64,000 nucleotides of DNA, from assembly GCA_025359915.1 (NCBI GenBank), contig JANYDE010000039.1, forward strand, positions 32,849 to 96,848, written 5' to 3'. The notes beneath the pieces are model-generated. The model searched no databases, was not told the origin of the DNA, and saw nothing but the letters and a program-made list of their open reading frames with translations. The translations under genes and the position numbers were made by a program. Positions 39,433 through 44,949 of this stretch are shown here, in pieces (position 1 is the stretch's first letter; each line of letters begins with the position of its first letter). The stretch is from Chamaesiphon sp. 336R_metabinner_41. Lineage in GTDB: Bacteria; Cyanobacteriota; Cyanobacteriia; Cyanobacteriales; Chamaesiphonaceae.

Positions 39433-40275
39433 TTAAGTTGTTGGAGGTAGAATCACCCGTTTAGCTAAACCTAATTTCTGTAATAATTTAATTGACCACC
39501 AAGTCATATCAATCTCCCACCATGCCCAGCCACCCTTCGCAACATTAGGATAAGCATGATGATTGTTGTGCCAACCTTCACCATAGGTTAATAATGCCGC
39601 CCACCAAAGATTCCGCGAATTGTCATCAGATTCATGCGCCCGATAACCCCACATGTGACTAGCTGAATTGATCAACCAGGTGCTATGCCATAAAATCACC
39701 GCACGTACAAATACACCGTAAATTACAAACGACCAACCACCGATCGCATATAATAGTAAGCCTACGGGAATTTGCAGGAACAAAAAGTATTTATCCAGCC
39801 AACGATAATAAGCATCTTTAGCTAAATCTGGTGCGTTGCGTTTGTATTCATCAATGTTGAAAAAGTTCGCTTTGGGGTAAAAAATCCATAGCATGTGGCT
39901 CCACCAAAAGCCCCGTTTCGCCGAGTAGGGATCTTTGTCCCAATCTTCTGTATATAGATGGTGCTGTCTGTGCCCTGCAACCCAGAAAATCGGCCCACCT
40001 TGGAGTGCCAACGCGCCGAGGGTAGCAAATACATACTCCAATGGTTTAGGTACCTGGAAGCTGCGATGTGTCAGCAATCGGTGAAATCCTAGGCAAATCC
40101 CGATCGATCCAAACAACCAGTGTAGGGCAATTGCGGCTCCTAGTGCCGACCAGTTAAAATACCACGGTGCCGCTAATGCGATGAGATGAAACGAGCCAAA
40201 AAAGAAGACATTTGTCCAGCTTAATGGTGTCGTATCAACTGGCTGTGAAGTAGTTTCAGTAAAATTAGCAGTCAT
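39433..40275 (-). CDS. Acyl-lipid/acyl-CoA delta-9-type fatty-acid desaturase
   Basis: Three His boxes: HRLLTHRSF, HRQHHLYTEDWDKDPYS, EGWHNNHHAYP. Confidence 0.94.
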   Translation of the reverse strand: MTANFTETTSQPVDTTPLSWTNVFFFGSFHLIALAAPWYFNWSALGAAIALHWLFGSIGICLGFHRLLTHRSFQVPKPLEYVFATLGALALQGGPIFWVAGHRQHHLYTEDWDKDPYSAKRGFWWSHMLWIFYPKANFFNIDEYKRNAPDLAKDAYYRWLDKYFLFLQIPVGLLLYAIGGWSFVIYGVFVRAVILWHSTWLINSASHMWGYRAHESDDNSRNLWWAALLTYGEGWHNNHHAYPNVAKGGWAWWEIDMTWWSIKLLQKLGLAKRVILPPTT

Positions 40276-40446
40276 AAATTAGGTTTTAGATTTTAGGTTT
40301 TAGCTTTAGGCGTTGGTTATTGGGTGTTGGGTTTTAGGTAATGAATTTGGAATTTTGCATCAAATTTCCCTAACCCCTAACCCCTAATCCCTAACCCCTA
40401 ATTCTTGGACACAAGTTCCGCATCTAGGTATAGTAGAAATAAGGTG

Positions 40447-40463
40447 TGCAAGTAACGCTTGCA
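40447..40463. promoter_or_regulatory. Candidate operator palindrome 1
   Basis: TGCAAGTAACGCTTGCA between divergent desaturase and TetR genes. Confidence 0.7.
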
Positions 40464-40492
40464 TTTATATCTTAACAACCTTTCGATCTTTG

Positions 40493-40509
40493 TGCAAGTA
40501 TCACTTGCA
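40493..40509. promoter_or_regulatory. Candidate operator palindrome 2
   Basis: TGCAAGTATCACTTGCA, perfect 7-bp arms, 9 bp before the TetR ATG. Confidence 0.75.
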
Positions 40510-40518
40510 TTTTCTTAG

Positions 40519-41754
40519 ATGGCTACCGTAGCAACTCCACAGAAACTTCTCTCCATGCCATCTTCGCGCAATCTGACTCGACAGAAATTAATCTATGCAG
40601 CCATCGAATTATTTGCCAGTCAGGGGGTAAATGAGACTACTACCAAGCAGATTGCCGAATTAGCACAGGTGAATGAAGTTACCTTGTTTCGGCAATTTGG
40701 GAATAAACATGGTTTATTGTTGGCGGTAATTGAAGACGCGGATGTATTCGCCCAATTGGGGCAGAATTTGATCGCCGATTTGCCACCAGCGAATGGTTTG
40801 GCGCAGATGCTCAGGGAGTATGCCAATACTTGTTTGCAAGCATTAGAACAGACTCCCGCAGTGGTACGATCGTTAGTGGGAGAGTCAGGACAATATTCGA
40901 TCGAAAATCGCCAGGGTTTGGGACGTAGTTTCGACAGGGCTAATCGGCGCGTAGCTAAGTATTTGAAATCGGCGATTGGTGAATCTCAATCTGATTTACA
41001 ATTACCTGTCGAGCAATTAACTAGTTTATTAAATACGCTGTTATTTGGCTACGCAACGATCGAATTAACGAGCGAATTTCATGAGCTGTGGAGGGATCGA
41101 GAGGATTTTCTCGATCGAGTTGTTGCTCTATTTTTAGCAGGTACAATTTCTGCCCCAACTGCTAAATTAACATTAACAATTCCACTCGATTTACCAGAAC
41201 CAATCGTTCATCAGATCCTCCAACAAGCAAAAAAACATAGTCTTCAGACTTACGCTCTCACCTACGTCTTATTTGGAGCGGGATTGAGTGCGAGTGAGAT
41301 TGTCTGCTTGACTCGATCGAATCATCTTAGCACTAGCGATCGACAATTATTTCAAATCACCCAAGCATCGACACGTCAGGTACCGATTAATCAGTGGATT
41401 ATGGGCAAACGCTACGGCTCATATCTAAAAAATCCCCTGACACAATGGCTCCGCAGTCGCAAAGATAATCACGAAGCTTTATTTGTTGGTGCAGATGGAA
41501 ATCCATTAACTGAAACCCAATTGCGCCAACAGTGGCAAGAATTAGTCCGCGAAATGATCACCCCCACAGGCGAATCCCTAACCATCGAGCAAACTCAAGC
41601 CACTTGGTGCGTCGAAATGCTCACCAGAGGATTGACACTCGAAGCCATGCAAACTTTGACAGGATGGGAAGCTAGTCAACTCGAACCCTATGTCAAACGG
41701 GCGAAAGAGCAGACAGTATTAGCACAAGCCTTTAATCTCGATAAGACAGGGTGA
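40519..41754 (+). CDS. TetR-family regulator fused to a degenerate tyrosine-recombinase-like domain
   Basis: N-term TetR HTH KLIYAAIELFASQGVNETTTKQIAELAQVNEVTLFRQFGNKHGLL; C-term ALTYVLFGAGLSASEIVCL ... ALFVGADGNPLTETQLRQQWQELVREM ... TQATWCVEMLTRGLTLEAMQTLTGWEASQLEPYVKRA. Confidence 0.75.
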   Translation: MATVATPQKLLSMPSSRNLTRQKLIYAAIELFASQGVNETTTKQIAELAQVNEVTLFRQFGNKHGLLLAVIEDADVFAQLGQNLIADLPPANGLAQMLREYANTCLQALEQTPAVVRSLVGESGQYSIENRQGLGRSFDRANRRVAKYLKSAIGESQSDLQLPVEQLTSLLNTLLFGYATIELTSEFHELWRDREDFLDRVVALFLAGTISAPTAKLTLTIPLDLPEPIVHQILQQAKKHSLQTYALTYVLFGAGLSASEIVCLTRSNHLSTSDRQLFQITQASTRQVPINQWIMGKRYGSYLKNPLTQWLRSRKDNHEALFVGADGNPLTETQLRQQWQELVREMITPTGESLTIEQTQATWCVEMLTRGLTLEAMQTLTGWEASQLEPYVKRAKEQTVLAQAFNLDKTG

Positions 41755-41929: not shown

Positions 41930-42451
41930 ATGCCAAGAACCCAGAAAAACGATAACTTCATCGATAAAAGCTTCACCGTCATGGCTGATATGCTGTTGAA
42001 GATGATGCCTACCAGCAAACGTGCCAAAGAAGCTTTCGTCTATTATCGAGATGGGATGTCCGCACAAGCTGATGGTGAGTATGCGGAAGCCTTGGATAAC
42101 TACGAAGAAGCCCTGCGCCTCGAAGAAAATGATTACGATCGCAGTTATATCCTATATAATATGGGATTGATCCATGCTAGCAATGGCGAACACGATCGAG
42201 CCTTAGCACTATACTTTCAAGCTGTCGAGCTAAATTCCCGCCTCTGTCAAGCCTTAAACAACATCGCGGTCATTTATCACTATCAAGGCGAAAAAGCCGC
42301 CGACGAAGGCGATATGACCTCCAGTGAAGCTTTTCTAGGTAAAGCCGCTGAATACTGGATTGAAGCAATCAAAATCGCGCCTAATAACTACATCGAAGCT
42401 CAAAACTGGCTCAAAACTACCGGACGCTCTCAAATCGATATCTATTTTTAG
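41930..42451 (+). CDS. ycf3: Photosystem I assembly protein Ycf3 (TPR)
   Basis: [81 protein letters not shown]. Confidence 0.97.
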
Positions 42452-43799: not shown

Positions 43800-44327
43800 A
43801 TGGCTGCGATCGACCAAGTGCCCGATGTTGTGTTTAAAACTCGCGTTCGCGATGAGTCCATTGGTGGTGAAAACCCTTTCAAATGGCAAGATGTAACTAC
43901 TAAAGATATCTTCGCTGGTAAAAAAGTAGTCATCTTCTCACTCCCAGGTGCATTTACACCTACTTGCTCTTCTACTCACCTCCCTGGTTATGAAGCAGCA
44001 TACGCCGAAATGAAAGGATTGGGCGTAGATGAAGTTTACTGTCTGTCCGTCAATGATGCGTTCGTCATGTACCAATGGGGCATCAAGCTCGGTGCTAAAA
44101 ACGTTAAGCTACTGCCCGATGGCAACGGCGAATTCAGCCGCAAAATGGGGATGTTGGTCGAGAAGTCCAACTTAGGCTTTGGGATGCGTTCTTGGCGGTA
44201 TTCGATGCTAGTCAATGATGGCAAAGTTGAGAAAGTATTCGCAGAAGCTGGCTACAGCGACAACTGTGAAACCGATCCGTTTGAAGTCTCTGACGCTGGC
44301 ACCATGTTGGCTTATTTGAAAGGCTAA
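43800..44327 (+). CDS. Peroxiredoxin (Prx5/PrxII type), copy 1
   Basis: [52 protein letters not shown]. Confidence 0.95.
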
Positions 44328-44421: not shown

Positions 44422-44949
44422 ATGGATTCAATCTACCAATTGCCAGATGTTGTATTTAAGACTCGCGTTCGTGACGAATCCATCGGTGGTGACAACCCCT
44501 TCAGATGGCAGGATGTCACGACAAAAGATATCTTCGCTGGTAAAAAAGTAGTGATCTTATCGCTCCCAGGTGCATTTACGCCGACTTGCTCTTCTACTCA
44601 CCTCCCTGGTTATGAAGCCGCATACGCCGAACTGAAGAAATTGGGTGTAGATGAAGTCTACTGTATCTCCGTTAATGATGCATTTGTGATGTATCAATGG
44701 GGACTCACCCTCGGCACTCAAAATGTCAAACTTCTACCCGATGGCAACGGTGAATTTACCCGTAAAATGGGGATGCTAGTTGAGATATCTAGCGAAGGTT
44801 TTGGGATGCGCTCTTGGCGTTATTCGATGGTTGTCCAAGACGGGAAAATTGAGAAGATTTTCTGCGAACCTGGTTTGAGCGATAATAGCGAAGAGGATCC
44901 TTTGGAAGTTTCTGACGCTGACACGATGTTGGCTTATTTGAAGAGTTGA
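44422..44949 (+). CDS. Peroxiredoxin (Prx5/PrxII type), copy 2
   Basis: [52 protein letters not shown]; tandem paralog of 43800..44327. Confidence 0.95.

Follow-up and report, generated by a model that had tools for sequence, protein, structure and literature searches.

The 64,000-nucleotide stretch of Chamaesiphon sp. DNA analysed here (the window) contains a 411-aa open reading frame in which a TetR regulator is fused with the catalytic domain of a tyrosine recombinase, the core-binding domain being absent. This conserved combination of a TetR protein with a dead recombinase is apparently undescribed: no relevant earlier description was found in the open-access literature, a search outside which most subscription papers fall. 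The gene is divergent from a fatty acid desaturase gene, desC, and we propose, with somewhat better than even confidence, that its product is a dedicated desC repressor, probably autoregulated, whose C-terminal domain most likely makes operator-bound dimers cooperate. The fusion gene and its parts are located as follows.

40519–41754, plus strand: TetR/dead tyrosine-recombinase fusion gene, ATG start, open frame, 411 aa, matched by Pfam and NCBIfam
40591–40728, plus strand: TetR_N helix-turn-helix (HTH), residues 25–70, Pfam E 2.6e-12
40744–41154, plus strand: TetR ligand/dimerisation domain, residues about 76–212, all-helical in AlphaFold2 (AF2), Foldseek TetR matches including DesT 3lsj
41149–41169, plus strand: flexible linker, residues 211–217, pLDDT <50
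41182–41751, plus strand: degenerate tyrosine-recombinase catalytic domain, residues 222–411, from PF00589, AF2 and the TM-score with XerA

A sequence-only reading of this locus had claimed that TetR is fused here to a tyrosine-recombinase fold, and the claim was borne out by profile searches, structure prediction and conservation across cyanobacteria. TetR_N and PF00589 both exceed the Pfam gathering cut-off, the latter (Phage_integrase) covering residues 230–386 of the 411-aa protein with an E-value of 3.3e-11. The C-terminal half is covered by the NCBIfam XerC model TIGR02224 (E 1.1e-9), and a sequence search of the PDB matched the fusion protein to an archaeal XerC-like structure. The AlphaFold model of the whole protein, built with 59 homologues, has a pLDDT of 87.9, reaching 95–98 nearly throughout the C-terminal domain, with the linker at 211–217 disordered; its pTM is 0.54, and therefore the relative arrangement of the domains is not fixed by the model. 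Modelled alone, the C-terminal domain shows the integrase fold with a pLDDT of 94.1 and a pTM of 0.89. Its nearest PDB structure in Foldseek turned out to be XerA (5hxy; TM 0.75 by query, E 6.6e-10), and XerH, Tn1549 Int, Cre and lambda Int are further solved structures that match. The TetR half matches TetR structures, among them DesT (3lsj). According to both Pfam and AF2, the TetR ligand domain runs straight into the catalytic domain, with the core-binding domain absent. TetR_N was found in all 59 fusion homologues scanned.

The full-length fusion appears as a single open reading frame in 72 distinct sequences, all of them cyanobacterial and complete genomes included, from Chamaesiphon (77–85% identical), Leptolyngbya-like genera, Calothrix, Brasilonema, Gloeothece and others. 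This survey excludes a sequencing-induced fusion, one of the two outcomes that the sequence-only reading had named as refuting it; no point in favour of sequencing or assembly having joined two neighbouring frames was found, and the probability of such an artefact is negligible. Among 244 evenly drawn cyanobacterial genomes, a profile of the C-terminal domain gave 25 strong matches, all within TetR-fused frames of 404–464 aa, and no free-standing copies. The weak matches are Xer-like proteins of about 300 aa, and the four examined in full all retain the HxxR motif. One stop codon each is listed in the matches of two genomes (G164 and G210); since both loci nonetheless have long open frames with the domain, the stops are placed at the edge of the match. 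A phage origin of the domain was considered and rejected: tblastn gave 0 matches in 50,697 phage records, and only generic integrase profiles matched.

The catalytic degeneration of the domain can be followed in these segments.

41272–41304, plus strand: box I, LFGAGLSASEI, catalytic Arg replaced by S257, Glu260 retained
41389–41424, plus strand: loop NQWIMGKRYGSY, near-invariant and family-specific, residues 291–302, exceeding its counterpart in intact Xer proteins by about 9 residues
41587–41667, plus strand: box II, EQTQATW...TGW, HxxR replaced by E357/Q360, W383 at the H/W position
41689–41691, plus strand: codon of Y391, aligned with the nucleophilic tyrosine, Tyr in 59 of 72 homologues and Leu in 10

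Alignment with intact cyanobacterial Xer-like proteins and XerA shows that the catalytic Arg (now S257), Lys (absent), His (E357) and second Arg (Q360) are lost in the window protein, and that E260, W383 and Y391 are retained. The earlier claim of an R to S exchange and a lost HxxRH is thus confirmed, although that account left out the missing Lys and the persistence of Tyr391 and Glu260. It had also counted H to W as a loss; the Trp is indeed there, but Trp is a functional residue at this position, as in Cre W315 (PMC10516654). S257 is shared by 60 of the 72 distinct homologues, with R257 in two and R360 in 12, and none has His at 357 or 383; even the homologue that keeps four of the five catalytic positions checked (L013) is without His. 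With most catalytic residues lost in the majority of homologues and His missing in all, recombination by the C-terminal domain is very unlikely. Rough dN/dS values among Chamaesiphon relatives, with dS near saturation, are about 0.03 for the HTH, 0.06 for the ligand domain and 0.14 for the C-terminal domain, indicating that purifying selection acts on all parts of the fusion protein in this genus and that the C-terminal domain is not decaying.

In cyanobacteria, unsaturation of the membrane lipids begins with delta-9 desaturation. The sequence-only reading did not mention a target gene; the divergent neighbour gives the fusion protein a likely one.

39433–40275, minus strand: desC-like acyl-lipid (delta-9 type) fatty acid desaturase, 280 aa, Pfam FA_desaturase E 1e-21, divergent partner and predicted target

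In the 244 genomes, 27 orthologues of the TetR half were identified, all scoring at least 222 bits against 132 bits for the next-best TetR, and a desC match adjoins the orthologue in all 27. Nearly every fetched fusion locus has the divergent desaturase; one ends at a contig edge (L061) and another is without desC (L080). No consistently linked partner gene other than desC was seen among the neighbours tested. In one genome (G216), the coordinates of desC agree with those of the d9 desaturase CYB_0861 of Synechococcus JA-2-3B'a(2-13) (PMC2593844), which supports the delta-9 enzyme class. In Gloeothece citriformis PCC 7424 the desC/fusion pair lies on a 29-kb plasmid, and its annotation there goes no further than TetR/AcrR regulator and fatty acid desaturase.

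The sequence between the two genes contains two putative operators and the predicted promoter elements.

40447–40463, no strand assigned: left operator, 17-bp palindrome TGCAAGTAACGCTTGCA, spanning the predicted start site of desC
40493–40509, no strand assigned: right operator, perfect 17-bp palindrome TGCAAGTATCACTTGCA, conserved across homologous loci
40469–40478, minus strand: predicted desC extended −10 TTGTTAAGAT, family consensus TTGYTANNNT, conserved spacer motif in 69 loci, putative promoter role
40492–40497, minus strand: predicted desC −35 TTGCAC, 17 bp from the −10 and within the right operator, assigned by position
40429–40434, plus strand: candidate −10 of the tetR gene, TATAGT; most homologous loci have a related TACAGT/TAAAGT, its distance varying

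The palindromes pointed out earlier at 40447–40509 proved to be real. Their consensus is TGCAAGTnnnRCTTRCA, and the pair lies between desC and the tetR gene, straddling the predicted desC promoter; as is characteristic of TetR-family regulators, the conserved predicted sites are palindromic and near a divergent gene. The pair is present in 69 of 71 homologous intergenic regions, with the core GCAAG / CTT invariant or nearly so and a start-to-start spacing of 46 bp in 31 loci, 47 bp in 29 and 43–55 bp in the remainder. A strict double-operator pattern was found in 37 of 386 genomes, every match being at desC|tetR as judged from inspected loci or from coordinates beside TetR-profile matches; the reversed control gave 0 matches in the same search. 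A wider regulon was rejected, as no further exact operator copies occur in the 4.23 Mb window genome. Isolated single sites elsewhere (L179–L181, L183, L190–L192, L195) have no desC or TetR gene adjacent and were taken as chance; one single-site match, that of G216, is located at desC|tetR.

The conserved spacer motif ANNNTARCAA reads TTGYTANNNT on the desC strand, and the TTGCA of the right operator lies exactly 17 bp upstream, so that the right operator would cover the desC −35 and the left operator its start site. Apart from the two palindromes and this promoter-like motif, the aligned homologous loci showed no conserved DNA block. A distance of 46–47 bp corresponds to about 4.4 helical turns and places the sites on roughly opposite faces; hence, simple side-by-side contact is not by itself suggested.

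Natural variants without the C-terminal domain help to assign the roles of the two halves. In the group to which G216 belongs (family f43), a TetR relative without this domain adjoins desC in all eight genomes; in L208 it is frame-shifted. All eight have an intact right operator but only two an intact left one, and two f43 species carry two near-sites. G067, which comes from a mostly fused family, has a TetR-only protein of 248 aa and keeps both operators at 47 bp. The promoter-like spacer motif is present in the TetR-only genomes too. Since TetR-only relatives keep desC and one or both operators, it is probably the TetR half that reads the palindromes. In the free TetR tree, the long f43 branch falls inside the fused group; a tree constrained to separate the fused proteins and G067 from f43 has a better likelihood than the free search (+18.6, p-AU 0.80), and f43 as the outgroup is accepted only in the sense of not being rejected. 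The simplest reading of these sequence data is that the TetR/desC/operator unit is older, that the recombinase domain was added later and that G067 lost it. The double operator is also not strictly tied to the domain, as G067 and the two f43 species indicate, and its spacing may reflect promoter geometry only, which alone could set it. The spacing was accordingly rejected as proof of bridging by the C-terminal domain, because G067 keeps it without the domain and because it fits the promoter geometry.

On these grounds, the following mechanism may be suggested. The TetR half would bind the two 17-bp palindromes as dimers. Occupation of the right operator would cover the predicted desC −35 and that of the left operator the start site; desC would thereby be shut off, and the regulator's own gene damped. 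As in DesT and MadR, which serve as the analogy, the ligand domain of the TetR half is probably a sensor of lipids, acyl chains for example. The C-terminal domain, presumably gained onto an existing TetR/desC/operator unit, would perform no DNA recombination; it most likely mediates protein-protein contacts through which the two operator-bound dimers cooperate, much as the catalytic domains of recombinases do during assembly on DNA. In a more far-reaching version, which is possible but doubtful, the dead recombinase domains would act as a synapsis-like clamp, tying two TetR dimers into a higher-order complex and making desC control switch-like; a mode of assembly used in recombination would then be reused in transcription.

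DesT is a TetR repressor of a desaturase gene in Pseudomonas. In mycobacteria, the TetR repressor MadR is an acyl-CoA sensor that binds the desA1 and desA2 promoters in dimeric form (PMC8872791). The fusion protein shares with both the TetR fold, a (predicted) desaturase target and, judging from a promoter assigned from sequence, operators that overlap the desaturase promoter. However, DesT and MadR by their descriptions have no recombinase-like domain and a different operator, and the desaturase at the fusion locus is a cyanobacterial acyl-lipid enzyme, unlike their targets. For the other half, a close parallel is MrpR (YopR), the SPbeta master repressor, a regulator with the tyrosine-recombinase fold that has likewise lost Arg and His and kept Tyr; MrpR, however, is phage-borne, has the core-binding domain, keeps Lys and binds DNA by itself (PMC10516654), whereas in the chromosomal fusion gene the TetR half takes the DNA-binding part. 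TnsF of Tn7-like transposons also combines an inactivated tyrosine-recombinase domain with a DNA-binding part, namely zinc fingers, but it retains the core-binding domain and serves transposon targeting rather than transcription (PMC10293859). XerA, XerC and XerD have the catalytic-domain fold in common with the C-terminal domain, as the XerA superposition and the XerC model show; the fusion protein differs from them in the missing core-binding domain, the lost R, K, H and R, the extra loop and the recombination activity that is not expected of it.

The sequence-only reading took the C-terminal domain for an extra DNA-binding or oligomerisation module. As a second DNA-binding module, it would grip the operator spacer or flank in the way MrpR does. 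Its fold is a DNA-binding fold, a dead recombinase that is itself a repressor provides a precedent (PMC10516654), and the homologue alignment shows invariant R298 and R314 and near-invariant R286 and K315. Nevertheless, only the palindromes and the promoter-like motif are conserved in the DNA, that motif occurs in TetR-only genomes too, and the operators are kept where the domain is missing. Most of the positive charge has also been lost: the net charge, a crude proxy for DNA binding, averages +1.7 over the family and is 0 in the window protein. Four intact Xer-like catalytic domains, by comparison, have +17, +8, +8 and +7, and a fifth stretch, which is longer, has +16. Moreover, the core-binding domain is absent, and in recombinases this domain supplies half of the DNA grip. 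A second grip on DNA is thus rather unlikely; the DNA-binding part of the earlier proposal is weakened, and oligomerisation or cooperativity, or else sensing, remain. Cooperativity or oligomerisation is favoured over DNA binding because of the lack of a further conserved DNA block and the low charge of the domain.

On the sensing view, the C-terminal domain would be a sensor, or a platform on which another protein or a small ligand docks; the contact would be made by the NQWIMGKRYGSY loop, and the domain would have no part in operator cooperativity. The loop region 281–320 is family-specific and conserved nearly as well as the HTH (mean 78% vs. 80%), and TnsF offers a precedent, its inactivated recombinase domain being the predicted docking site of TniQ, a prediction that mutants support (PMC10293859); the neighbours tested, however, offer no consistently linked partner but desC, and we assign this role a similarly low probability. 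That the domain is a dispensable relic of little function appears very improbable. It is missing in f43 and G067 and evolves faster than the TetR half, and in two genomes the match contains or adjoins a stop, though with long open frames there; on the other hand, it has 21 invariant columns over 49 diverse sequences, its dN/dS is well below 1 and it is nearly always retained. The preferred reading, a desC repressor with a cooperativity module, would provide a candidate dedicated desC regulator with two defined predicted operators in many genomes. Little is said in the literature found about which regulator acts on desC, and the defined operators together with natural variants without the extra domain make this question directly testable. 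The fusion is also an example, chromosomal and conserved over a long time, of a transcription factor that has taken up a recombinase domain.

Several features of the surroundings may be added. The window's genome has two more desaturase paralogues (C107:29185–29979 and C91:17321–18094; 73% and 54% identical). On pP742403 (NC_011730.1, L224), the small mobilizable Gloeothece plasmid mentioned above, the desC/fusion pair and both operators adjoin an orange-carotenoid-protein-like gene. Tandem heptamer and octamer repeats (TTAGGTT, CCCTAAC and others) occur throughout the window, including 40279–40339 and 40368–40401 between desC and the operators; they look like the short tandem repeats already known in cyanobacterial DNA. 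The downstream neighbour at 41930–42451 is Ycf3, a photosystem I assembly protein (NCBIfam), a neighbour common to the nearest relatives only. Further on, at 43800–44327 and 44422–44949, there are two tandem, closely similar ORFs of 175 aa that are peroxiredoxin-like by sequence.
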